Part shown: positions 31,853 to 47,457 of the stretch, in pieces
Numbering within the stretch: position 1 is the first letter of the stretch
Layout of the letters: the number at the start of each line of letters is the position of its first letter
Assembly (NCBI GenBank): GCA_015660995.1
Contig: JACTUC010000005.1
Location: forward strand, 49,861 to 113,860
DNA from: Candidatus Methanomethylicaceae archaeon
Lineage (GTDB): Archaea > Thermoproteota > Methanomethylicia > Methanomethylicales > Methanomethylicaceae
Reading direction: 5' to 3'
Length of the DNA stretch: 64,000 bases
Notes under the pieces: model-generated
The model's database searches: none
What the model was told of the DNA's origin: nothing
The model's input: only the letters and a program-made list of their open reading frames with translations
Program-made: the position numbers and the translations under genes

Positions 31853-31933
31853 GATCGCGCCAATCTCGAGGCAGTTCGGAAACCCAACAAGCTTTAATAA
31901 TTATGGAGTCCCGATAATCACCTGTGAGATCGG

Positions 31934-32266
31934 ATGAGTGAGGAGCTCAAGAAGTACGTCGAGGATGCCCTTCATAAGTGGATAATGAAGCAGATCGAGG
32001 AGGGCAACTTCAAAGCAAACCTCAGGATCGAGATAGATAGCCCCATAGAAGTAAAAGGTATGAAGGGCAGGGTTGTGGGCGAGATCATCTTATCGGAACA
32101 AGTTCCAGAGCGGCTTCCATCGATCCCTGCAGAGTATCCGAAGAAGGCGGAGGGAGAGTCCGCTGAGGCAAGCAGTGGAGAGCAGAAGAAAGAAGGGCGG
32201 GCTCAAAGTTCCGAGGATATGAGCCTCTCAGACGTTGACAAGCTGCTCAGGTCCCTGGGCGTATGA
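31934..32266 (+). CDS. Hypothetical protein (110 aa, charged)
   Basis: Intact ORF with TATA-like tttaataattatgg upstream; no family recognised. Confidence 0.55.
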   Translation: MSEELKKYVEDALHKWIMKQIEEGNFKANLRIEIDSPIEVKGMKGRVVGEIILSEQVPERLPSIPAEYPKKAEGESAEASSGEQKKEGRAQSSEDMSLSDVDKLLRSLGV

Positions 32267-32284
32267 GCGTAATGGGCATCAAGG

Positions 32285-33442
32285 CTATTTTTTACTAGCT
32301 TTCGTGACGTCGATATGCAGCCCAGTGTGCATTTCCAACTCCTTCACCTTCGACTCGACTAAGCCACAGAGTGATGAGTCAGTGTATATGGTGAAATCGC
32401 TTCCTTGGCTTGCTGCCAGAAGCCCAAACTCCACAGCATGAAAACGGTAGTGGACATCAAGCTGCCTCTTCCTTGCTATCCTGCGTGCAGTTGACCCGAA
32501 AACACCCGAATGCATGTGGGAAACAGAGAGCAGATCGTCCCGAGGAGCCATTTGCTGGATGTCCTCTTCATCGACACAGACCAGCGTAATCTTGCCAACC
32601 GACTGGTTGGTCGTTGAGAAAAACTTTTGCGAGAGCTCGACGATATTCCGTGGGTAAGGTTTTTCAGGTGAACCAGTCCTCAAGTGGAACTGCTGGTTGA
32701 GGAGGAAGGCCAGAGGCGGCATAAGGCCGAGGTCGTGAAGGAGCTCAGCCTGCTCGAAGAACTCATCCGATCCACCCGAGAAGACCAAGCGCCCTGCATT
32801 CAGCGCCCTCACCTCGTCCGCCCACTCGTAAGCGGTCTCAACATCGTGTGTCGAGATGATAACAGTCAATCCCCTGTTGTTGAGTTCGTCAGATAGCTCC
32901 AGCAGCTCGTGCACCATCTCATAGTCGAGGCCAGCCGTCGGCTCATCCATGACCAGAACGTTTGGCTTCATGGCGAGCGCGCCAGCTAGCGCAACTCGCT
33001 TCCTCTCCCCAAAGGAGAGCTGCTGAGTAGGCTTTTCGCGGCTATTTTCCAGCCCTATCCATGATAGGGCTTCATCCACCCTGCGCCCAACCTCCTCCCT
33101 ATTGAGCCCCAAGTTCAATGGGCCGAAGGCGACATCCTCCTCTACCGTGGCTGAAAAAATCTGATCATCAGGGTTCTGGAAGACAAGAGCTATGTTTTTG
33201 CGCAGTTCAGCCAGTGATGAAGAATCGTAGGAGATCTTCTTTCCTTCATAGAAGACAGTACCACTATCAGGTTTGAGAACGCCGTTGAGATGAAGAAAGA
33301 GCGTCGATTTGCCAGCGCCATTGGGGCCCAGAAAGACAGTCTTCTTCCCCTTGGGTATGTCGAGTGTGACGCCGGACAATGCCATAGTCACATTATCATA
33401 GGAGTATGAGAGATTCTCTGTGCGAAGAATTGGCTGTGGCAT
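32285..33442 (-). CDS. cbiO: Energy-coupling factor ATPase CbiO-like (Co/Ni uptake) with C-terminal extension
   Basis: GPNGAGKSTLFLHLNGVLKPDSG, LSFGERKRVALAGALAMKPNVLVMDEPTAGLD; operonic with CbiQ/N/M. Confidence 0.9.
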   Translation of the reverse strand: MPQPILRTENLSYSYDNVTMALSGVTLDIPKGKKTVFLGPNGAGKSTLFLHLNGVLKPDSGTVFYEGKKISYDSSSLAELRKNIALVFQNPDDQIFSATVEEDVAFGPLNLGLNREEVGRRVDEALSWIGLENSREKPTQQLSFGERKRVALAGALAMKPNVLVMDEPTAGLDYEMVHELLELSDELNNRGLTVIISTHDVETAYEWADEVRALNAGRLVFSGGSDEFFEQAELLHDLGLMPPLAFLLNQQFHLRTGSPEKPYPRNIVELSQKFFSTTNQSVGKITLVCVDEEDIQQMAPRDDLLSVSHMHSGVFGSTARRIARKRQLDVHYRFHAVEFGLLAASQGSDFTIYTDSSLCGLVESKVKELEMHTGLHIDVTKASKK

Positions 33443-33451
33443 GCTGCATCC

Positions 33452-34237
33452 TCACAGTACGAGCCATCCAGACGTAAGATAGCCAAGGTAATACAGTATA
33501 AAAAAGATGGCGATCGGAACTATGACCCAGACTGCAGTCATCTTTGGAGGCGTCTTGAAGGAAGGGAAGCTTCCTTGAAAGTTGCGGCAGTAGAGGGCAT
33601 ATTGCCCCCTTTCAGCGAGATCCATGGAGCGGCTGAAAACGCAGGCTGTTATTATGGAGATTGTCCTGATTGAATTCCGCAACCCCTTGAAGCCCAGACG
33701 GCACTGTGCAGCAGTTATCATTAGCTCGACCTGATCCGCAAGCAGGAATGAGTACCGGTAAATTAAGACCGCCAACTCGCTGATGCTAGCTGGGAGACCT
33801 ACCTGCCGCAGGGCAGTGAAGAAGTGGGGGATCGAGGTCGAAGATGCAAAGAAAAGAAGGATTGACAGATCAGCTACCGCCCTTAAGAAGACGAGTACAC
33901 CCAAATTCATTCCTTCCCGTGTCAGATAAAGAGTCAATGGGCCCAATTCTGCGCTAAGGAGCGTCGACCCTGGGGTCAACAAGGCTATGATAAGGGCTCC
34001 AATCAGAATTACCAGCAGGGTATCGATGCAGGCAAATAGAAATATCCTTGGGAGGTAAAACTTGCTCGAAAGGCTGAAGAGGATTGTTCCAATGGCAAGA
34101 ACAACCAATGGCACGGCAGGAGAGTTGGTGAAGAGCGTGGCAAGTATTAGCGCCAAAGAGAGAACAAGTTTCCCCAAAGGGGGCCAGTTCCTGAACGGGC
34201 TGTGGAGATAGAGCCTGTCCATGGAGGTCTCGTGCAT
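33452..34237 (-). CDS. cbiQ: Energy-coupling factor transmembrane protein CbiQ-like
   Basis: ECF-T family TM pattern and position between CbiO and CbiN/M. Confidence 0.87.
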   Translation of the reverse strand: MHETSMDRLYLHSPFRNWPPLGKLVLSLALILATLFTNSPAVPLVVLAIGTILFSLSSKFYLPRIFLFACIDTLLVILIGALIIALLTPGSTLLSAELGPLTLYLTREGMNLGVLVFLRAVADLSILLFFASSTSIPHFFTALRQVGLPASISELAVLIYRYSFLLADQVELMITAAQCRLGFKGLRNSIRTISIITACVFSRSMDLAERGQYALYCRNFQGSFPSFKTPPKMTAVWVIVPIAIFFILYYLGYLTSGWLVL

Positions 34238-34245
34238 TTATGGCC

Positions 34246-34560
34246 TCAACCTTCTCCATTCTCCTTCTTTTTCTCTTCCTGCTTCCGGGCGATTGATTCA
34301 GAGGGCGTGTGCCCTATGAAATACATTATTACAAATGTTCCAAGAACAACAGCTACGATTAAGAATAGTGTCTCGATCTCGGGAGGGAGCTGGTAGATCG
34401 GAGCGAACCATGATTTGAAACCAGGATAGGTATTTCTGATCATATTGCTGATGATATCGTCTGATCCCTGAGAGCTGGCATTGGCGTTGATGACGAGCAC
34501 GAAGGCAATCATGGCAATGATAAAAGCCACTCCTAGTGCATATCTTATCGAAGCCCTCAC
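34246..34560 (-). CDS. CbiN-like small membrane protein
   Basis: Two TM segments with intervening SSQGSDDIISNMIRNTYPGFKSWFAPIYQLPPEIETLLF-like region; overlaps the start of the CbiM-like gene. Confidence 0.75.
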   Translation of the reverse strand: MRASIRYALGVAFIIAMIAFVLVINANASSQGSDDIISNMIRNTYPGFKSWFAPIYQLPPEIETLFLIVAVVLGTFVIMYFIGHTPSESIARKQEEKKKENGEG

Positions 34561-35219
34561 ATCTTGTCCCCCAGTATCTGAACGACAAGTTTCGGCCTTG
34601 ATCTCTTCAAGTAGTCAAAGAATATGATGAAGAGTATTCCCTCCACTATTGCGAGGGGTATTTGGGTAATTAAAAATATCCCCAAAAAAGTTGTGAAGGA
34701 TCCCATTATGCCTCCACTGGCCGAAGGGTATACGACTGCCAACTGCAGAGCCGTTATAACATAAGTAACCAAGTCTGCCACGACTGCGGTGGAGAAGACC
34801 TGAATTGCCAATCTTGCTTTGAGAAAACGGAGGATTCTGAAGGTTAAAAAACCCGCAGTCGGTCCAGCAATTCCCATGGAGAAGATGTTTGCGCCAAGGG
34901 TTGTCAATCCCCCATGCGCCAAAAGCAATGCCTGGAATATGAGGACTATGGCAGAGAGGAGTGATGTGGTTGCCGGACCATACAGGATAACTGACAACCC
35001 TGTTCCAGTTGGGTGGGAGGATGAGCCAGTCACAGACGGAATATGCAGCGAGGAGAGCACGAATATAAATGCCCCTGACACTGCAAGTACGAGCTTCTGC
35101 TCAGGTCTCTCGCGGAATATTTTCGCGACATTCCGAGCGCCCCATACCACAAAGGGTATCGCCACCAAGAACCAGAATAAACACCAGATAGGAGGCAAAA
35201 AGCCTTCGGCAATGTGCAC
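34557..35219 (-). CDS. cbiM: CbiM/NikM-like substrate-specific membrane component
   Basis: N-terminal MHIAEGFLPPIWC and SLHIPSVTGSSSHPTGTGLSVILYGP motif. Confidence 0.93.
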   Translation of the reverse strand: MHIAEGFLPPIWCLFWFLVAIPFVVWGARNVAKIFRERPEQKLVLAVSGAFIFVLSSLHIPSVTGSSSHPTGTGLSVILYGPATTSLLSAIVLIFQALLLAHGGLTTLGANIFSMGIAGPTAGFLTFRILRFLKARLAIQVFSTAVVADLVTYVITALQLAVVYPSASGGIMGSFTTFLGIFLITQIPLAIVEGILFIIFFDYLKRSRPKLVVQILGDKM

Positions 35220-35322
35220 ATTCCATCACGCTCTTAAATAAACCATGATGACCCAGCTTAGACTTGTAAACGAATGATCACAATTTGTGAGGATGAATTT
35301 AGGTTTTCCTGTAGAGGATCTG

Positions 35323-35745
35323 CTAGGTCATGCCCTTCTTATCCAGAGCAGTAGCAGTGAAACCATACCTTTCAGGAATTGCTTTGCCTAACGTTTTTGT
35401 TATGTCAATGATCTTATTCTTGTCAAGCCCGACAATGATGGAGTTTATTACAAGGGTGCCCTCGCTCTGCGGATTTGCAAGCTCGCTCTTCACATAGACG
35501 CCATACTTCGCCCCGATTGTGTCAGCCTTGACCCAGCCGCCAGTGGTGTGCAGGATGCATTTGACATGCCCAATCATCGTTGCGCCCTGCTTGACGCACT
35601 CGTCGGCTATCTCCTTCATCAAATCCCGCGCCATATCTTCAAGTCTAATGGGATCTAGTGGTTGTGGGGCAACGAGCTTGAAGGCGATTCCATAACCCCA
35701 TTCGTGGTCCACCTCGTAGTGCGGCAGCCCCCAGTTCGTGCTCAT
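35323..35745 (-). CDS. Conserved-looking small protein of unknown function (140 aa)
   Basis: Abuts the CobW/HypB-like GTPase (start/stop adjacent) on the same strand. Confidence 0.7.
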   Translation of the reverse strand: MSTNWGLPHYEVDHEWGYGIAFKLVAPQPLDPIRLEDMARDLMKEIADECVKQGATMIGHVKCILHTTGGWVKADTIGAKYGVYVKSELANPQSEGTLVINSIIVGLDKNKIIDITKTLGKAIPERYGFTATALDKKGMT

Positions 35746-36390
35746 CTAGCCCACCCTACCGCCTATGGGCGTACCGCCAGGCTCGAGGAGGATCCTTATC
35801 AACTCGTCCATACCATCCCCCCTGACCACGGAAAGCCGGATTATCAGGGCGCGTGTATTTATCCCCCTAATCATCCTCTCACAATATCGAATTCTCTCCT
35901 CATCAACAAGGTCGACTTTGCTTATGGCGACAACATCGGCATTTAGCACCTGCCGCATGATGAAGTTATTGACTGTCTCATTTTCAAGCAATTCGTCGAC
36001 CCTGAAGGCGTCATAGAGAACTATGACTGGACCAATCTCTATTTCAGCATCTGTGTCCCGGGTACTCATCGCTATGGCTACCTTCACCTGGTCAGGTATC
36101 GCCACTCCAGTTGGTTCAATCAGTACGAGATCCGGCTTGAAGTAATCCGCGAGGTCGACCAAAGAAGCGGCAAGGCTGGGGCCAAGCTCGCAGCAGATGC
36201 ATCCACCTGCAATCTCCTTGACCTTCATTCCAGCGACCTCAATGACTTTTGCATCAACTGGTACGTCCCCTATCTCATTTACGACCAATGCCACCCTTTT
36301 TTTGTAAATTTGGGAGATCTTGCTTGAGGCTTCAAGCAGGATTGACGTCTTCCCGCTGCCCAAGAAACCAGCTATTTGGACAACCTTCAT
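35746..36390 (-). CDS. CobW/HypB/UreG-type P-loop GTPase
   Basis: Walker A GFLGSGKTSILLE, metal-binding-like GGCICCELG, LVLIEPTGVAIPD, ISKVDLV. Confidence 0.88.
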   Translation of the reverse strand: MKVVQIAGFLGSGKTSILLEASSKISQIYKKRVALVVNEIGDVPVDAKVIEVAGMKVKEIAGGCICCELGPSLAASLVDLADYFKPDLVLIEPTGVAIPDQVKVAIAMSTRDTDAEIEIGPVIVLYDAFRVDELLENETVNNFIMRQVLNADVVAISKVDLVDEERIRYCERMIRGINTRALIIRLSVVRGDGMDELIRILLEPGGTPIGGRVG

Positions 36391-36391
36391 T

Positions 36392-38356
36392 TTACTTGAG
36401 CTCCTTGGATTCCAATGCTGGCCTTCCGGTGGCCGTCACTCTTATGTCGCTCCACATGAAGCCAATCTTTGAAAATACCTTATCCTCTCTTTTCACCTTG
36501 AACTCTATATCGATTGCGCCTGTCTTTTCTGCCTGTTTATACGCCTCTTCTTTGCCCATTTTTATCGCGAACTCTGCTGCGGATTCGAGGTCAGAGAAGA
36601 CATGCCTCCCCGGGAAGACAACATAGCATTCAGGCATGACCTCCTTTCGCACGAGAAGATCGAAGGTGCTGACGACGTTCCCTACGAGCGAGCCTATGGC
36701 AGCTCCAACCTCATAGTGCTGGGGTATTATTGACTCGGTCTTCAGCCTTTCAGCGATCTGGGGAATGAAGAACTGGGCTGGCGCACCTATGCCCACGATG
36801 GGGACATTGAGTGAGCATGATACAGAGATATCGCCAAGAGATCCGCGTATAATTGAGTCAAGGATCTCCACCGCTGGGTTTGGCTTCTCTGAATTTTCCA
36901 TGATCATGTTTCCAAGGGGGGTCTGCAGCTCAGCTAGCCGCAGTGCATTCTTCTGGACCATCAGGTCCCATACCTTCTCGTAAAGCTGATCCTGGGTTAT
37001 GTTGAGCCTTTTTGCCAGGATCCCCGTGCCCAACATGGAGGCCTCGACGTCTCCCAAGGTAAAGAGACCTTTCACGTGCATGAGGTCTGTCGGCGTTAGA
37101 CCTATCCTGGCCATGTAGCCGGAGTCCTCGAGCATACCGATCAGCAGGTCAACTGGTGTGCTCTTCAGCTCCTTCTTGATTTCAATAATGGTAGCAGGCT
37201 CAAGATTCAATACAGCATCAAATAATTTTTGCGAGAGCCCGCCCGCATCGGGTCTTCTCATCGCCTTCGAGGCGCTAAAGAAGTCTACCGTTTCGAACTG
37301 TTGCATCTTCCCCTTGAGGGAAGGGAAATCTTTGGATGCAAAAGCAAGCGGTATTACTCTTCTTGGTCCTACCTTGAGGATGCCCATACTGTCGACAGAT
37401 ATCCAGCTGTCACCACCATTTCCGAGGGCATCTGCGTCCACTGCCCTGACTCTGGTCTTCCACCCCGCTATGGTGGCGCCGCTCTCATCTATCTTGGGCG
37501 CACCGGCCTTGACGGAGCAAATGATGGTCGTAGTACTGCCGATATCCATAACTACCACATCTTCTTTGGATGATAGGAACTTCCCCCCGATGACGCTGGC
37601 GGCAGGGCCGGACTGGATCGTTTCAATAGCGCGTTCCATGGCAACAGCATCATTCATAAGGGCGCCATCTCCTCTCACAAGCATCAAAGGGGCACAGATG
37701 TTTCGCTGTGACATGGCAGCTTTTACGGACATTATAAGGCGCTCAACTATGGGCATTATCCTGGCATTCAGCACGGCCGTGACCGTTCTTTCATATATCC
37801 CCAGTTTACCCGCGAGCTCAAAGCCGCACACTACGGGCTTATTGGTGTGGCGGCTTATTATGCGCTTAACAGTCATCTCGTGGATAGGGTTTCTAACACT
37901 GAATAAGCCTGAGACAGCAAATGAATCCACGGCATCTTTACTCCTTTTCACCCCATCCTCGATAGCGTCCAAATCCAGCGGGCAGATCTCGATTCCGTCT
38001 GGTCCGTGCCCGCCATTAAAACTCATGATATTGTGAACAGGGAGATCCCGGGCATTTTCGGGCTTTGAAATTAACATGTCTGACTGCTGGAAGCCGAGGA
38101 GGATTAGTGAGACCTTTCCGCCCTTGTTCTCGATGATTGCGTTCGTCGCCAGCGTAGTTGCAAGGGAGACAAGGCCGATCTCTTCGGGGCGGACATTGCT
38201 ACTGGACAGCACCTTGTCGAGTGAATTTATTATTCCCAACGAAAAATCATTGTAGGTGGTTGGCGACTTCGCCTTAGAGACTACGTGCCAATTCTTGAGA
38301 TCCATGATAACGGCGTCAGTGAATGAGCCACCACTGCTAATGCCAATGCCAAACAT
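36392..38356 (-). CDS. Hydantoinase/oxoprolinase (HyuA)-family ASKHA protein
   Basis: GIGISSGGSFTDAVI N-terminus, ATTLATNAIIENKG, RGDGALM, SGPAASVIGGKFL, VVMDIGSTTTII. Confidence 0.87.
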   Translation of the reverse strand: MFGIGISSGGSFTDAVIMDLKNWHVVSKAKSPTTYNDFSLGIINSLDKVLSSSNVRPEEIGLVSLATTLATNAIIENKGGKVSLILLGFQQSDMLISKPENARDLPVHNIMSFNGGHGPDGIEICPLDLDAIEDGVKRSKDAVDSFAVSGLFSVRNPIHEMTVKRIISRHTNKPVVCGFELAGKLGIYERTVTAVLNARIMPIVERLIMSVKAAMSQRNICAPLMLVRGDGALMNDAVAMERAIETIQSGPAASVIGGKFLSSKEDVVVMDIGSTTTIICSVKAGAPKIDESGATIAGWKTRVRAVDADALGNGGDSWISVDSMGILKVGPRRVIPLAFASKDFPSLKGKMQQFETVDFFSASKAMRRPDAGGLSQKLFDAVLNLEPATIIEIKKELKSTPVDLLIGMLEDSGYMARIGLTPTDLMHVKGLFTLGDVEASMLGTGILAKRLNITQDQLYEKVWDLMVQKNALRLAELQTPLGNMIMENSEKPNPAVEILDSIIRGSLGDISVSCSLNVPIVGIGAPAQFFIPQIAERLKTESIIPQHYEVGAAIGSLVGNVVSTFDLLVRKEVMPECYVVFPGRHVFSDLESAAEFAIKMGKEEAYKQAEKTGAIDIEFKVKREDKVFSKIGFMWSDIRVTATGRPALESKELK

Positions 38357-38397
38357 GGAAGACCCTACAAAACTCTCGCTTTAAAACTTTGGTGTCT

Positions 38398-38412
38398 AAA
38401 AAAAAATAAAAA
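38398..38412 (-). terminator. T-tract terminator of the methyltransferase gene
   Basis: On the minus strand TTTTTATTTTTTTTT begins about 17 nt after the stop codon at 38429. Confidence 0.55.
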
Positions 38413-38428
38413 GGGATTATGTGTGGTG

Positions 38429-39493
38429 CTATGTCTTCTTGTAGGGATTGTACATCTTGCAGGCGTCAACCATGGCCTTTGCATTCAGCAACGATGCATT
38501 GGGTGGGAACTCACATCCCGAACACAGGAGGAAGCCTCCGCCAGCCGCGAGGGCATCGATCTGCTTCTTGGACTCCCTTAACACCAAGTCCTCGTCTCCC
38601 ATGTAAAGCACGTTGGGGTTGTCCATCATTCCCAAGAGCACTACCTTCTTGCCCCACTTCTCCTTCAGTTCCTCAAGCGAGCTGATTCCATCTGGGAGGT
38701 AGTGGAAGGAGATTCCCAATGGATTGTACCACTTGGTCATTGTGTCGAAGTAGGTTGCGTTGCCACAATTATGTAGGATGACTGGGACGTTGCGCTTATG
38801 GCATTCATCTGAGAGTTTCACGCAGAACTGCCCTTCGAATTCATCGTAGACAGGTCTGCTCCATATGAACCTCGAGGCGAATAGCACATCTAGAACTATG
38901 GCGTGCACTCCTGCCTCTATCTGCTGAACCGTATAGTCGAGGAGCACATCATTGACTACCTTGAGAGCCTTCTTGACTGCTGAAGGGTTCCTCTTCAGAT
39001 CGAGGCTCATTTTTTCCAGTGTTCGCATCATGGATAGCACCCCTGCCGGACCATACACGAAGCCCATTATGGCGACTTCCTTGCCCTTCTCCTTAGCTAC
39101 CGTTGACGCTACCTGCACCGAATTCTTCATTCTGGTTGCCTTTTTGGCATCAACCCACTCGAGCTTTTCGTAGTCCTCTACGGTCTTGATCAGTGGATCT
39201 CCTTTGAAAGCCATTGTAATTGGCGTGCTCTCCATTGGATAATCGACCTTTTGACCCCACGCCTCACACTCGACGCTTAGGTCTGTCAGCAGCAGGAATC
39301 CATCGAACCCTAGGAGTTTCTGCGCTTGGATGAGAGACTTGGCTGTCAACTCTGGCTTTTTCGCCCATTGTGCATAGGTAATGCCTAGAACCCTTCGGGA
39401 GGCACCGCAGACTAGTGGTCCAGCTGGAACTCTATCCGATTCCCTGAAGGACAGTGCATCAACTACTCTTTCTAAAGATGTTTTTTCTGGCAT
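38429..39493 (-). CDS. Uroporphyrinogen decarboxylase-family methyltransferase (MtaA/MtbA/CmuA-like)
   Basis: Zn-ligand-like HNCGN (VILHNCGNAT) and C-terminal LLCSGCEFPPNAS; adjacent corrinoid protein. Confidence 0.88.
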   Translation of the reverse strand: MPEKTSLERVVDALSFRESDRVPAGPLVCGASRRVLGITYAQWAKKPELTAKSLIQAQKLLGFDGFLLLTDLSVECEAWGQKVDYPMESTPITMAFKGDPLIKTVEDYEKLEWVDAKKATRMKNSVQVASTVAKEKGKEVAIMGFVYGPAGVLSMMRTLEKMSLDLKRNPSAVKKALKVVNDVLLDYTVQQIEAGVHAIVLDVLFASRFIWSRPVYDEFEGQFCVKLSDECHKRNVPVILHNCGNATYFDTMTKWYNPLGISFHYLPDGISSLEELKEKWGKKVVLLGMMDNPNVLYMGDEDLVLRESKKQIDALAAGGGFLLCSGCEFPPNASLLNAKAMVDACKMYNPYKKT

Positions 39494-39495
39494 GT

Positions 39496-40143
39496 TTAAG
39501 CCCCCTTCATTAGTTTTTCAAATGCCTTTACAGCCTCAGTGGCATCAACAGCATATGCATCTGCTCCGACATTCTGTGCGAAGGCTTGTGAAGTTGGTGC
39601 GCCCCCGACCATGACCTTAACCTTTTGCCTGAGGCCTTGCTCGACCAGCATATCCACAACATCCTTCATCTTGAACATGGTGGTGGTCATTAGCGATGAC
39701 ATGGCAATTACATTTGCGTTTGTCTCCTTTGCTTTCGTAACGAAAGCCTCTATTGGAACATCTCTGCCTAGATCATAGACCTTTACCGATGAAGCTTCCA
39801 GCATCATCTTGACGATATTCTTACCAATATCGTGGACGTCGCCTTCGATGACTCCTATGACAACACTGGCGGGAACAGTGGACTGGACCTTTATGTACGG
39901 TCTGAGAACATCCATCGCAGAATATAATGCCTCTGCTGAAAGCAGAATTTCTGGGATGAACATCGTACCGGCAGTGTATCTGTCACCTACTACCTTCATT
40001 CCCTCTTGGCATCCCTTGGTCAGAGCCTCATAAGCGTCCATTTGTGCGTTGAGAGCCTTTTGCGCCCAGACCTTTGACACATCTGGGTCTCCATCGATGA
40101 CGGCCTTTGCTAGGCCAGCTAGGATATCTTCTCTTGTAGACAT
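39496..40143 (-). CDS. Corrinoid (B12-binding) methyltransferase protein (MtaC/MtbC/MttC-like)
   Basis: Helical cap plus B12 signature GVIEGDVHDIGKNIVKMMLEASSVKVYDLGRDVP, GGAPTSQAFAQNVGADAYAVDATEAV. Confidence 0.95.
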   Translation of the reverse strand: MSTREDILAGLAKAVIDGDPDVSKVWAQKALNAQMDAYEALTKGCQEGMKVVGDRYTAGTMFIPEILLSAEALYSAMDVLRPYIKVQSTVPASVVIGVIEGDVHDIGKNIVKMMLEASSVKVYDLGRDVPIEAFVTKAKETNANVIAMSSLMTTTMFKMKDVVDMLVEQGLRQKVKVMVGGAPTSQAFAQNVGADAYAVDATEAVKAFEKLMKGA

Positions 40144-40214
40144 GAATAATTTTCTGATATTAAGGTGTAATTAAGGATTTTGGTAAAAAAAAGTTGAGGT
40201 TTTTAGAATAAACT

Positions 40215-40240
40215 CACCATTAAACACCATAGGGATGGTG
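40215..40240. promoter_or_regulatory. CACCAT half-site plus inverted repeat CACCAT-N4-ATGGTG upstream of the corrinoid protein gene
   Basis: CACCAT at 40215, CACCAT at 40225, ATGGTG at 40235. Confidence 0.4.
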
Positions 40241-40343
40241 CAACCGTCTACCATGAAATCAAGTTCTGCGCTAGGCTATGTCACAGCGTGTAAAACATCC
40301 TAGCCAATATTCATAAAACAAAAACTGCAAACGGTTACAGGGC

Positions 40344-41840
40344 TTAAGATTTTTCCTTGCCATTGTGCGAGTCATGGTTGCAGGTATCATTGTGGTCGCA
40401 CTCTTCGCTTTCAGATTGTGGAGGCTGCTTCAGAGCTTCTTTTTGCAATTCTACAGAATTCAGGCGCTCAAAGGCGGAGAAACGATCCAAGGCATCTTTT
40501 CTGTAAACCGAGCTATGATCAAGGGCTTCAAGGACAATTCGGACCTCTTCCTTTGAAAAGTTGTAAAGCTTGAACGCGAGGGCGTCCAACTTCGCAAGAG
40601 TATCTGCAAGGTACCGCTCCACGCCGATGAGATTCTCTGGAACATCGAGGGGCTCGCTATCAATAATCTTGAAATCATATGTGACGTACTTCTCAACCAT
40701 AATGTAGTTATGGAAATCGATTGCAACGGCCTTAAAAATGTAATCAGTCTGTCTTTCTGTATCCTGCTCTCTCAGAGGGACATCGGTCCCTTCCATAATG
40801 TCTTTAATGCTGGTGTGCTCCAACCGGTTAGCGGAGAGAATTGAGCAATAGACATGGAGCAAAAGCTCCTTCTTGCTGAAGGATAGGATGCCCAGCTGCG
40901 CGCTACCACTCAGGCTCTCACCATGGAAGGTCAGTGAATTGTCTTTGAGATCAGGCCTGACGATAATATGTTCAAAGGTTTTGCTGTACATTGGGTCGTC
41001 GGGCTGTGGTATTTCTGCCCTCAGAAGCCACTGTTCGAAGGCACCACTGCACTCCGCATGAACGCTTTCTACAATGACCTTCAGCCTCTTAGAATTAGAC
41101 TTGAAGAATGCAGAGTAGGTGCGCCAGAGATCAATGTATGTGCGTCTCGCCTTCTTCAGGTTATAGGCGTCATTCGCGATTTTTTTCAGCACACTGTTGA
41201 AATTATCTTCGGGCATTATCAGCGGTATAGTGCTTATAGTTTTGGCATCCATTGTGATTTGTGTCTTGACTTTTTCCCCACCATACTTTACTAAAAACCA
41301 GACGACAGATGAATTCAGGAGCGCAATCAAGCATCTGGGATCGATGTCGATGGGTTCGATGTAGTATGCTCCACTGTCAACATAGTATGGGATGTTGACA
41401 AAGGCAAACCGGGGGTATTTGGTTACTGTGGCAGAGACTATTTTCTTTGGGTTCGTTGCTGTTTTCATAAGGCTGGGATCCAACAGCTTTGGAAGCACAA
41501 CTCTTGCCTTTGGCTTATCAGCGTAGTAGAATGGCTCGATCTGGTCAGCCCCATACAGAGGTTTGATCCTTGACCTGATTGCTTCCAATGGTTCAATAGA
41601 GTCATACTCAGCCTGAGTGATTGTAGTAAAATCCTTAAGCTTGTCCATATCATTACGTCTTGCAAAACCCTGCCGATCCATGTACACCGTAATGCCAGAA
41701 GTGATTTGTTCTCTTGGAAGCCTAAAGTTCGATGCAGCTTGGATCTTTTCCAGTATTTGATAGCTCATGCTTTCTGGCATTTTTGATGGTTGATTCTGCT
41801 CTAAAGTATTGCCCTTCGTTCTGACCTCACTCCTGCACAT
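40344..41840 (-). CDS. TaqI-like / type IIG target-recognition-domain protein without a methyltransferase or nuclease domain
   Basis: LPREQITSGITVYMDRQGFA...IKPLYGADQIEPFYYADKPKARVVLPK and DPRCLIALLNSSVVWFLVKYGGE...ISTIPLI resemble type IIG C-terminal TRDs. No NPPY motif found. Confidence 0.55.
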   Translation of the reverse strand: MCRSEVRTKGNTLEQNQPSKMPESMSYQILEKIQAASNFRLPREQITSGITVYMDRQGFARRNDMDKLKDFTTITQAEYDSIEPLEAIRSRIKPLYGADQIEPFYYADKPKARVVLPKLLDPSLMKTATNPKKIVSATVTKYPRFAFVNIPYYVDSGAYYIEPIDIDPRCLIALLNSSVVWFLVKYGGEKVKTQITMDAKTISTIPLIMPEDNFNSVLKKIANDAYNLKKARRTYIDLWRTYSAFFKSNSKRLKVIVESVHAECSGAFEQWLLRAEIPQPDDPMYSKTFEHIIVRPDLKDNSLTFHGESLSGSAQLGILSFSKKELLLHVYCSILSANRLEHTSIKDIMEGTDVPLREQDTERQTDYIFKAVAIDFHNYIMVEKYVTYDFKIIDSEPLDVPENLIGVERYLADTLAKLDALAFKLYNFSKEEVRIVLEALDHSSVYRKDALDRFSAFERLNSVELQKEALKQPPQSESEECDHNDTCNHDSHNGKEKS

Positions 41841-41887
41841 TATGTGAATGAAAAATTCGAGTATATAAGTGATGAACGGGGATTATT

Positions 41888-42505
41888 TTAAAAGCCAAGC
41901 TTCTCCTTCACGAGTATCAGGGTAGTTCTGTTTTCAATTGTCTCCCTGTTGATTATGACCCATTTTGCCATATCGCAGGAAAATCCATACGCTTTTTTCA
42001 CCATCTGGTTTGTGAGGGGGAATGCATGCTCCTGAACCCTGCGCATGGCGTCTTCGAGGTTGCTAGTGATTTTATTTGCTCCACTCACGAGCATCAGGTG
42101 CTTTGCCGCGTATAGATACGCACCGATCCTTGAGCCGGACATGTCGCAGGCGACAAGCTCGCCCTTGAGCGTTATTGCGTTGACACTGCCCAAGTAGTAT
42201 TCGGCTGTGACAGACTTACGCCGGAGCTCTTGGCGCACTGAATCGTCTTTCTCCATCTGGATCTCTGCGTATAGGTCTTTCCAGTCATGTTTCCCTGACT
42301 TCAGGTACGCCTTGAACCCAATCTCCTCCAGTGTAACCGAGCTGCCGCTCATCACCTCTGCCCCGCGGGGGATGATTCTCTTTATATGTGCGAGAGCCTC
42401 CTTGCCATTTTCAGCCAGTATCGCATTTATCCCGTTTCTTTTTATGGCATCAAAGGTTGTTTTCACAGCCCCTTCGTCAGGCATCTTTGACCATTTTTCG
42501 CTCAT
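41888..42505 (-). CDS. LUD-domain protein (LutC/YkgG-like)
   Basis: IIPRGAEVMSGSSVTLEEIGFKAYL, GSVNAITLKGELVACDMSGSRIGAYLYAAKHLMLVSGANKI. Confidence 0.85.
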   Translation of the reverse strand: MSEKWSKMPDEGAVKTTFDAIKRNGINAILAENGKEALAHIKRIIPRGAEVMSGSSVTLEEIGFKAYLKSGKHDWKDLYAEIQMEKDDSVRQELRRKSVTAEYYLGSVNAITLKGELVACDMSGSRIGAYLYAAKHLMLVSGANKITSNLEDAMRRVQEHAFPLTNQMVKKAYGFSCDMAKWVIINRETIENRTTLILVKEKLGF

Positions 42506-42516
42506 CTTGAATCCCC

Positions 42517-42666
42517 CTAATCCACGAAGAACTCATCAAACAGAAAGAACGGATCCACATAATTAGAATCTTGCGTGGGGAAGAGCCCCCTTACAAAAGC
42601 GCCCTCTTCCTCCTCAGTTTCAACTGCTTTCTTTATTTCTACAGCTGCATTGTTTGCAATGGGCAT
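42517..42666 (-). CDS. 49-aa microprotein resembling only the pirin N-terminus
   Basis: Not in the ORF track. Translation: MPIANNAAVEIKKAVETEEEEGAFVRGLFPTQDSNYVDPFFLFDEFFVD*. Ends at the pirin DPFxLxDEF motif; GGAGA upstream of the ATG; lies between HycG-like and LUD genes. Confidence 0.7.
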   Translation of the reverse strand: MPIANNAAVEIKKAVETEEEEGAFVRGLFPTQDSNYVDPFFLFDEFFVD

Positions 42667-42729
42667 AATTCTCTCCCCATCTTGGATTTTTTCCTTTGCA
42701 GCAAAAAGAAACGGTAGAAGGAAGAAAGA

Positions 42730-43185
42730 TTAGGCTTTCTTGACTGCTTTCTTCTTCTCGGCTAGCTTGAGTATGCCCTGCACTATGCCGTTGATTATAG
42801 CCTCTGGCTTTGGTGCACACCCTGGTACATAGACATCCACAGGCACAAGCAGGTCAGGCGAGCCAAGTATGGCGTAGTTGTCCGGATCCTCGTTGTAGAA
42901 GAGGCTGCCACCACAGGCGCATCCACCGATCGCTACGACAACTTTAGGGTCGGGCACCTGTTCGTAGACCCTTTTTACCATGGGTATGAACTGCTTCGGC
43001 ACACAGCCGGTGGCTATGAGGATGTCGGCGTGCCTGGGGGAGGGTACGAGCTGTATCCCGAACCTCTCAGGGTCCCACCTCGGCGAAAGCGCAGCGAGAG
43101 TCTCGATGTCGCAGCCATTGCAACCTCCACAATGGAAGTGGAAGAGCCACGGCGAGTAAATCCTAGACTTGGCCATTATTCCCAT
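42730..43185 (-). CDS. Group 4 [NiFe]-hydrogenase-like small subunit (HycG/NuoB family)
   Basis: HCGGCNGCDIETLAAL, ATGCVPKQF, IGGCACGG, VYVPGCAPKPEAIINGI. Confidence 0.92.
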   Translation of the reverse strand: MGIMAKSRIYSPWLFHFHCGGCNGCDIETLAALSPRWDPERFGIQLVPSPRHADILIATGCVPKQFIPMVKRVYEQVPDPKVVVAIGGCACGGSLFYNEDPDNYAILGSPDLLVPVDVYVPGCAPKPEAIINGIVQGILKLAEKKKAVKKA

Positions 43186-44766: not shown

Positions 44767-46524
44767 TTAGGCCCTCCCTTTCCGCTGACTCATCCTGACT
44801 AACTCATCCCAGCTCAGCGAGTATGAGGACTCGGTCTTCGCATCTATTACCTCGACCCTGTCAGTGCATGCCTGGCACTGATCGATGCTACCCATTATTA
44901 TGGGTACATCGGCAAGGGCGCAATCCTTAAGCATGAATGGCAGCGCTGCATTATTCCTATAACTCGGGGTCCTTATGCGTACGCATTGGGGCTGGTTCGA
45001 TCCCTGAACGTTATGCTTCCCCTCTGGCATCATGTACTCGGGGAGTTCTGTGCCTCCGGCCCTCATGTAGTAGAATAATTCGCCTCTTGGTGCCTCGTCA
45101 AGCCCAATCCCTTCCGTGCCCGGCTCAATGGTGCGGGGCTTGGCCCTTATCTCGCCGGTTGTCTTTGCCAGATAGTCGAGGCACTGCACGACTATATCCA
45201 TGGAGACGAAGAGCTCCTTGACACGGACGAGGACGCGACCATACATATCGCGGTGGTCGTCCGTGATGACTTCCCAACTGATCTTCTTGGGGTCGTAGAT
45301 CGCGTGGGGTGGGTTATCCATCCTTACGTCTATCTTCCAATTGCTTGCTCTTGCCACTGGACCCACTACGCCTGTCTCGAAGCATGTTGCGAGGTCAAGT
45401 GTGCCGACACCAATGCACCTCGACTTTAGTATTGGATGATCGGCTACTGGAGGCAGGAGTTTTGCCAAATCCTCTTTGAGAGCGAGAAGGGTCCTCTTGG
45501 AGGACTCAGCCAATTCCTGCTTTACGTCCCTACTGACGCCGCCGAGCCTCCATATCCCGTAGTTGACCCTGTTGCCAGTTATGGCCTCGATTATGTCCAT
45601 CACACGTTCCCTCAGGCCCCATGTGAGCATGAAGCCAGTCTTCCAGCCAATCAAGTCAGCTGCAACTCCGATCCACAGTATGTGGCTATGAACCCTGTTC
45701 AACTCTGCCAGCAGGGTTCTGATGTAAAGGGCTCTCTCGGGTACTTCTGCGTCATAGAGGTTCTCGGCCGCTGTGACGAATGCGATCCCGTGGTGGGCGC
45801 TACAGATTCCACATACTCGTTCGGCAACGAAGACGCCCTTGTTGTACCCTCGCCTCTCGATTAGCCTTTGTATGCCTCGGTGGTGGTAGCCAGTCTTTAT
45901 ATCGGCGTCGATGACATGCTCACCTTCCACTTTCACATAAACAGTCTGCCCCTCAATCACGCCGGGGTGGTACGGCCCTATCGGCACAAGCGCAGATATG
46001 GCATCCTTGGGGCTTATCCCCACCGGGAGCCACTTCTCGCCTGGCTTTGCCTCGACCGGGTAAGTTGTCGAGTTTTGCGCGGGTGAGATGCCGGTTTCCG
46101 GATTCTTTGGCCACTCGTAGGGTAGGAATTGGTGCCTCGGGTCGGGCATCCCAATAAAGTTGATGCCCAGGAACTCCTTCATTTCCCGTTCGGCCCAGAC
46201 AGCCTGCCAAGTAACCTTTCCGACCGAATTGATCGTGGGATTTTCCCTCGGTAGATTTGCCTCGAGGACGATCTGGAGTCTTTCCTTGTACTTGGTGAAG
46301 TCGTATGCATAAATGATGTCGAACCCAAACTGCTGGAGGTCGACACCCGAGGCGTGACTCAGACGGACGCCTAGTTTCTTCGTGAAGCGCTCGGCCAGTT
46401 TGTCTACGTCATCTGGCTTTACCCTCACAAATACCCTGTTCTCCCTTCCCATTTTGTACTCGAGCCCTTCTGGCACGACCTCTTGAACATACTGCATTAT
46501 CGCTGAATCTGATGTGGCAGCCAT
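44767..46524 (-). CDS. HycE-like fused NuoCD large subunit with CxxC-type NiFe ligands
   Basis: NuoC-like N-terminus, then HHRGIQRLIERRGYNKGVFVAERVCGICSAHH (L1) and SIDQCQACTDRVEVID (L2). Confidence 0.92.
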   Translation of the reverse strand: MAATSDSAIMQYVQEVVPEGLEYKMGRENRVFVRVKPDDVDKLAERFTKKLGVRLSHASGVDLQQFGFDIIYAYDFTKYKERLQIVLEANLPRENPTINSVGKVTWQAVWAEREMKEFLGINFIGMPDPRHQFLPYEWPKNPETGISPAQNSTTYPVEAKPGEKWLPVGISPKDAISALVPIGPYHPGVIEGQTVYVKVEGEHVIDADIKTGYHHRGIQRLIERRGYNKGVFVAERVCGICSAHHGIAFVTAAENLYDAEVPERALYIRTLLAELNRVHSHILWIGVAADLIGWKTGFMLTWGLRERVMDIIEAITGNRVNYGIWRLGGVSRDVKQELAESSKRTLLALKEDLAKLLPPVADHPILKSRCIGVGTLDLATCFETGVVGPVARASNWKIDVRMDNPPHAIYDPKKISWEVITDDHRDMYGRVLVRVKELFVSMDIVVQCLDYLAKTTGEIRAKPRTIEPGTEGIGLDEAPRGELFYYMRAGGTELPEYMMPEGKHNVQGSNQPQCVRIRTPSYRNNAALPFMLKDCALADVPIIMGSIDQCQACTDRVEVIDAKTESSYSLSWDELVRMSQRKGRA

Positions 46525-47457
46525 CTATTTCCCCTCCTTTATCTTCGAGATCAGCTTTGTAGGCGAAACGGTCCTGAATACGTCCATGCCGAAGTCCTCA
46601 GGCTTGTAGCCCATCGCCAGCGCAAGTATCTCTGAGAAGTGGAGCACTGGGATATCGAACTCCGTGATCTCGCCTGTCGGGTCCCCTTCTTCCTGGAGGA
46701 CCTTGACGCCCCTGTCGAACTGGTCGTAGCAGCCCGAGCAGATAACAACGATGCCGTCGACAGCGAGGTCTTGAGCGAACTTGAACTTCTTGAAAACGTT
46801 TCTATAGATGGCGATCTTGGGGTCTGAGAAGTAGACCAGCAGGCCGCAGCACATTGAATCGTAGGGTGTGTTCACAAGCTGAACGCCCGTGGCTTTGAGG
46901 ATCTCGTCAAAGTACCTTGGAAGGACATCGTCGCCAAGCTTCCTGCCATGGCACCCTACGTGGCGCATTACCCTCACGTTGGTGAGCGGGTTGGTGATAT
47001 TAGCCTTGATCTTCTCTATCCCAACGTCTTCATAGAGGACCTGTAGAAAGTGCTTTACCTTCACTGTGCCCTGGAAGTCCATGTTGGCCTTCCTGAGGTG
47101 CTCCTTGACCATCTCCATCTTCTCTGGTTCATCCTTGAGCTCCTCCAGGGCTTCGTAGTGGGATATCCAGCACCCATTGCACGAATCCACCAAGGTCACT
47201 CCCTGCTTCTCGGCAAGTGCAAGGTTTTGACCCGTCATGGTCAGCCAGGTGTCCGGATCCAGTGTCTTCCAAACACCAGGTCTCACGCAGCAGAGGGTCT
47301 CCTTCATGTAATCCCAATTTAGCCCGAGCTTGTTGGCGACTAGGAAGGTTGCCTTCTCTGCCCAAGGCATCTTAGCAGGCATGACGCAGCCTAGGAAGTA
47401 GCCATACTTCTCTCCGGTAACATTCGAATTTGTTGTCAGTCTTGTCTCCCCCATCAA
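46525..47457 (-). CDS. HdrB-like CCG-domain protein
   Basis: YFLGCVMPAK...LCCVRPGVWKTLDPDTWL...DSCNGC and HVGCHGRK...MCCGLL...VICSGC: two cysteine-rich CCG modules as in heterodisulfide reductase subunit B. Confidence 0.88.
   Translation of the reverse strand: MMGETRLTTNSNVTGEKYGYFLGCVMPAKMPWAEKATFLVANKLGLNWDYMKETLCCVRPGVWKTLDPDTWLTMTGQNLALAEKQGVTLVDSCNGCWISHYEALEELKDEPEKMEMVKEHLRKANMDFQGTVKVKHFLQVLYEDVGIEKIKANITNPLTNVRVMRHVGCHGRKLGDDVLPRYFDEILKATGVQLVNTPYDSMCCGLLVYFSDPKIAIYRNVFKKFKFAQDLAVDGIVVICSGCYDQFDRGVKVLQEEGDPTGEITEFDIPVLHFSEILALAMGYKPEDFGMDVFRTVSPTKLISKIKEGK

Follow-up and report, generated by a model that had tools for sequence, protein, structure and literature searches.

A 49-codon open reading frame homologous to the pirin N-terminus in a Methanomethylicaceae archaeon: a probable relic of a truncated gene

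Between the last gene of a redox operon and a gene for a LUD-domain protein, a 64,000-nucleotide stretch of DNA from Candidatus Methanomethylicaceae archaeon (assembly GCA_015660995.1, contig JACTUC010000005.1), hereafter the window, contains a short open reading frame (ORF) whose translation resembles the very beginning of a pirin and nothing beyond it. Does this frame encode a working peptide, or is it what is left of a truncated gene? The original prediction, made from the letters of the DNA, named both readings, a pirin relic and a peptide docking to a redox complex. The frame that it described is present and lies on the minus strand, which had not been specified (Table 1). It starts with ATG and, according to the ORF listing for that strand, is translated into MPIANNAAVEIKKAVETEEEEGAFVRGLFPTQDSNYVDPFFLFDEFFVD (49 aa); the plus-strand translation of the same interval is unrelated to this peptide. 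The predicted gap of 63 nt between the stop of the NuoB/HycG-like gene and the ATG, the distance of 11 nt from the stop to the LUD start, and a plausible Shine-Dalgarno site were all confirmed in the sequence.

Table 1. Features of the locus, in positions of the window.
Feature	Position	Strand	Remark
Stretch unshared with sister genera at the locus	31853..42729		From the AIRS-like gene to NuoB/HycG; ORF at its edge
LUD-domain protein, 205 aa	41888..42505	minus	Next gene after the ORF
ORF stop TAG and 11-nt spacer to the LUD ATG	42506..42519	minus	TAG, then GGGGATTCAAG, then ATG
49-codon ORF	42517..42666	minus	Residues 11-46 homologous to archaeal pirin N-terminus; 1-10 and 47-49 not
Shine-Dalgarno-like GGGGAGAG (GGGGAG) 5' of the ORF ATG	42671..42678	minus	Resembles GGGGG/GGAGGG of neighbouring genes
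Pyrimidine-rich tract directly after the NuoB/HycG-like stop	42698..42729	minus	28/32 pyrimidines, 18 T
NuoB/HycG-like small subunit	42730..43185	minus	Last gene of family-conserved Nuo/Fpo/hydrogenase-like operon

The signals on either side of the ORF bear on how it might be expressed. On the upstream side, the pyrimidine-rich tract is a possible archaeal transcription terminator dividing the redox operon from the ORF, which suggests that transcription may end before the ORF is reached. Downstream, the G of the ORF's TAG is also the first G of a GGGGG that is likely to be the Shine-Dalgarno site of the LUD gene and, judging by this spacing, translation of the two frames is possibly coupled. 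The codon content of the ORF (16.1 bits) is higher than that of 63% of 50-codon segments of genes and of 99% of other ORFs of 40-70 aa; this gene-like score comes from amino-acid content, synonymous choice by itself being neutral. GC at third codon positions is 0.45, whereas genes average 0.60; the value is at the low end among the genes of the window.

The predicted likeness to the N-terminal motif of pirin was borne out by a blind search across 400 phylum genomes and by shuffled sequences. The top non-self matches were full-length archaeal pirins (best E 1.5e-6), which align to the peptide at their own N-termini, and a few weaker matches (E > 0.01) were other proteins; such 400-genome sets are samples of the phylum, not all of it. 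The best match, the pirin of genome G340, shares 59% identity with the peptide over 34 residues, and 56% over 36 columns in a pairwise comparison. In the reverse direction, a search of the ORF's own genome with the full G340 pirin matched the ORF alone, through pirin residues 2-37 of 237. An ORF that resembles pirin by accident would be compatible with the lack of any Pfam, NCBIfam or PDB match to the peptide alone, but this lack is unsurprising because the homologous part comprises only 36 residues. Moreover, the local alignment score against archaeal pirins is 94, compared with a maximum of 55 among 2,000 shuffles and of 48 among the approximately 480 other short ORFs of the window, and the blind search yields pirins in the right register. 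An accidental motif was rejected on the basis of the shuffles and these other ORFs, and is extremely improbable; the comparisons indicate homology to the pirin N-terminus rather than chance. Within the motif, DPFxLxDE and the second glycine are kept, and the first glycine (G20E) and the arginine (R27G) are lost. These two are the only losses among eight positions that are invariant in 20/20 pirins (19 archaeal and the human protein), the other six being kept.

The ORF was also said to stop short of the metal-binding core, and it does. In human numbering, obtained by aligning the ORF to human pirin via the G340 sequence, the homology extends up to DPFxLxDEF (Phe45) and so stops 11 residues short of the first iron ligand, while the last residue of the ORF itself corresponds to position 48. 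The iron ligands of pirin are His56, His58, His101 and Glu103 (PMC11304471), so none of the four is present. Both cupin barrels, PF02678 and the C-terminal domain, are absent from the peptide. In agreement with the claim that no remainder of pirin follows downstream, no further piece of a pirin was found nearby in any frame, and searches of the ORF's own genome with PF02678 and with the full-length G340 pirin found no pirin elsewhere.

At the scale of the lineage, the peptide is absent from 21 family and 39 class genomes, and no second copy of the ORF was found in 61 relatives, in 400 phylum genomes, or in class sets of 40 and 257 genomes. A search for the peptide at the same locus in related genomes gave no counterpart, and a full-length pirin gene there in close relatives, the outcome set beforehand as counting against the original prediction, was looked for and not found. 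PF02678 has no match in 40 class genomes (the ORF's own and 39 others), and a profile of the pirin N-terminus detected nothing else pirin-like in class genomes, a single weak match in G021 (E 0.03) lying inside a 434-residue frame. Contig scans for sister species with the LUD protein and with the peptide gave no match, within a method that uses exact peptide words, may omit records near the ORF's own genome and reaches very close relatives only. No relative was found in viral contigs, and no literature on pirin fragments together with LUD was found. Other short frames with a pirin N-terminus were sought in the phylum, and the sole candidate (G326, 92 aa) was set aside because its pirin gene is interrupted by one frame change and continues directly downstream. 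This broken gene (L074, 1492-2350) lies in a single-contig genome.

The genomic surroundings place the ORF at the edge of a slot that varies between relatives. On one side lies an aminotransferase/AIRS-like gene pair and on the other the Nuo/Fpo-like operon with HdrB, both well conserved in the closest relatives. Among the sister genera that could be compared along a long stretch, the identity of NuoB/HycG is 84-94% (G003, G001, G002), with 79% in G005 as the exception. Within the operon, a family-conserved NuoC/NuoD fusion adjoins an HdrB-like subunit (44767-47457). The slot, bounded by the AIRS-like gene and NuoB/HycG, measures ~1.1 kb in G001, ~4 kb in G003 and 10.8-10.9 kb here. In sister genomes, NuoB/HycG ends the operon at the syntenic site and is followed by unrelated genes, without the peptide and without LUD. 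In G003 these encode superoxide dismutase and a DEAD-box helicase; G001 and its kin have a short gene whose product is a putative DNA-binding protein, and G002 and its kin carry DNA methyltransferase-like genes (the latter two named from translations, not by family search). Here, the slot contains cobalt transport and corrinoid methyl-transfer genes, a gene for a 498-aa protein, LUD and the peptide. As the slot is variable and lies between conserved blocks, the peptide at its edge does not belong to the conserved redox operon. A tRNA as integration site was considered and rejected, no tRNA gene being located within the window.

The other genes of the slot can be described briefly. The stretch 32285-40143 encodes cobalt transport components (ABC ATPase, CbiQ, CbiM), a CobW-like GTPase, a hydantoinase-A-like protein, an MtaA/CmuA-like methyltransferase and a corrinoid protein, and no MtaB/MttB-type substrate methyltransferase was seen beside them. 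The 498-aa protein (40344-41840) has a weak TaqI_C match below the Pfam cut-off. Its homologues were found in G003 alone among 250 phylum genomes, as two copies of similar length with 34-35% identity, which indicates a narrow family; the similar length also led to rejection of the gene as a truncated one. No strong match to the LUD protein was found in other genomes of the family. A LUD paralogue at G000:C4 (L110, 7135-9017) is 60% identical and has no pirin-like ORF upstream, and a duplicate of the peptide was sought beside it and not found. This paralogue is divergently oriented from two ferredoxin-type 4Fe-4S proteins, as read from their translations. An ancient pirin-LUD gene pair was also considered. 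In G224 a pirin and a LUD homologue share a contig, but two genes lie between them, and there is no such neighbour at the G340 pirin nor at the LUD homologues of G360 and G332; the idea was rejected.

Altogether, the ORF is probably a relic of a horizontally acquired, truncated pirin gene; it may still be translated, in coupling with LUD. It displays partial homology with the rest of the gene missing, as in a truncated-gene remnant, relaxed constraint being read from the two lost invariant positions. A pirin gene would have been acquired from elsewhere into the variable spot just downstream of the Nuo/Fpo-like operon, and a rearrangement placing LUD alongside would then, in the order of events proposed here, have removed all of the pirin after DPFxLxDEF. 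What survived would be the ribosome site and start codon of the pirin with 46 sense codons, in a frame that would read on for three codons within the LUD leader and end at the TAG overlapping the LUD ribosome site. Such a stub may perhaps still be translated and pass ribosomes to LUD, without pirin activity. Counting against a relic, the frame, start codon and plausible ribosome site are intact, six of the eight invariant positions are kept, no trace of the lost 3' part was found, and neither a donor gene nor an intermediate was found, pirins outside the phylum having been sampled via PDB entries only. Indirect signs of selection point both ways. The ORF is 56% identical to its nearest pirin (36 columns) and that pirin is 50-58% identical to other pirins, so that either the truncation is recent or constraint persists. 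As a rough guide, a simple neutral simulation, in which the present ORF sequence was mutated until 2/11 conserved positions had changed, ended with start and frame still intact in 22-68% of runs, a share that varied with the indel rate, and an intact frame is thus not evidence of function.

The same intact frame and ribosome site, together with the six conserved positions, would also fit a functional microprotein, in which the pirin N-terminus docks to, or competes at, an oxidoreductase (the Nuo/Fpo-like complex, LUD or a ferredoxin oxidoreductase). In Bacteroides fragilis, Pir1 and Pir2 bind pyruvate:ferredoxin oxidoreductase by two-hybrid, and contacts of Pir1 with the enzyme were predicted at Ala28, Asn29 and Tyr31 (PMC11304471). 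Mapped by numbering offset, these contacts would fall in the stretch kept by the peptide. However, the peptide occurs in one genome only (0/21 family and 0/39 class genomes), and the redox complex thus functions in its absence; the invariant G20 and R27 are lost; the pyrimidine tract separates the operon from the ORF; and AlphaFold gives no predicted structure for the peptide alone (pLDDT 54), in a single-sequence model that is uninformative. A functional microprotein is therefore unlikely. The more specific proposal that a pirin fragment was recruited as a stand-alone regulatory peptide, keeping the surface with which pirins may contact ferredoxin-linked oxidoreductases but not the iron site, and sharing a transcript with LUD, has a slim chance of being right. 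Between the two readings of the original prediction, the relic is the better supported, by the confinement to one genome, the lack of pirin in the class, the position at the edge of an unshared stretch and the loss of two invariant residues; redox docking is unsupported, the operon being found without the peptide in every relative examined.

The translation of the ORF could also matter while its product does not. As a leader ORF for LUD, it would bring terminating ribosomes to the LUD ribosome site and tune LUD output, the peptide itself being irrelevant. The TAG overlapping the LUD Shine-Dalgarno-like site, 11 nt before the LUD ATG, is consistent with this, and a coupling role alone could keep a relic in place. 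However, overlapping signals and short spacing are common in prokaryotic operons, the LUD paralogue lacks a pirin-like ORF upstream, and the single copy leaves no second one to compare, which makes a leader function improbable. Finally, a foreign pirin gene could have been mis-joined to LUD in the assembly, the genome being a draft of 28 contigs whose pirin content is limited to the ORF fragment, with no second assembly found. Against this, the junction lies within a continuous contig of 114 kb, the flanking genes are on the same strand, the ribosome-site signals fit both neighbours, and a chimera is unlikely to stop three codons on, upon the ribosome site of the next gene. An assembly artefact is very unlikely.

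If the ORF is a relic, it adds one more case of acquired genes trimmed at variable sites, leaving microprotein-like translatable stubs, and it teaches that function is not demonstrated by homology, a ribosome site and an intact frame, even in combination. If it is functional, the pirin N-terminus could act without the iron site, and the peptide would offer a small test of pirin-oxidoreductase contact through the N-terminal segment. Among known systems, MicroProteins (PMC5381583) derive from individual domains of larger proteins. The ORF resembles them as a short protein matching part of a larger one, but it differs in having no full-length pirin partner in its genome, no conservation and less than a whole domain. 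With the pirin family itself (PF02678; human PIR, PDB 1j1l/4gul; the G340 pirin, locus L046), it shares a gap-free N-terminal alignment, T-x-E-x-x-G, FPT and DPFxLxDE, at 56-59% identity to the G340 protein. Pirins are, in contrast, ~240-310 aa long, and the ORF ends before HPH and the four ligands, so no cupin barrel is possible, and within the EGxG...VxR motif both G20 and R27 are replaced. Gene-fragment pseudogenes are similar in comprising a 5' fragment with the rest absent, in a single genome, at a variable locus and with invariant residues lost; the ORF differs from them in having kept its start, ribosome site and frame, with a stop that abuts the ribosome site of the next gene, so that it may still be translated.
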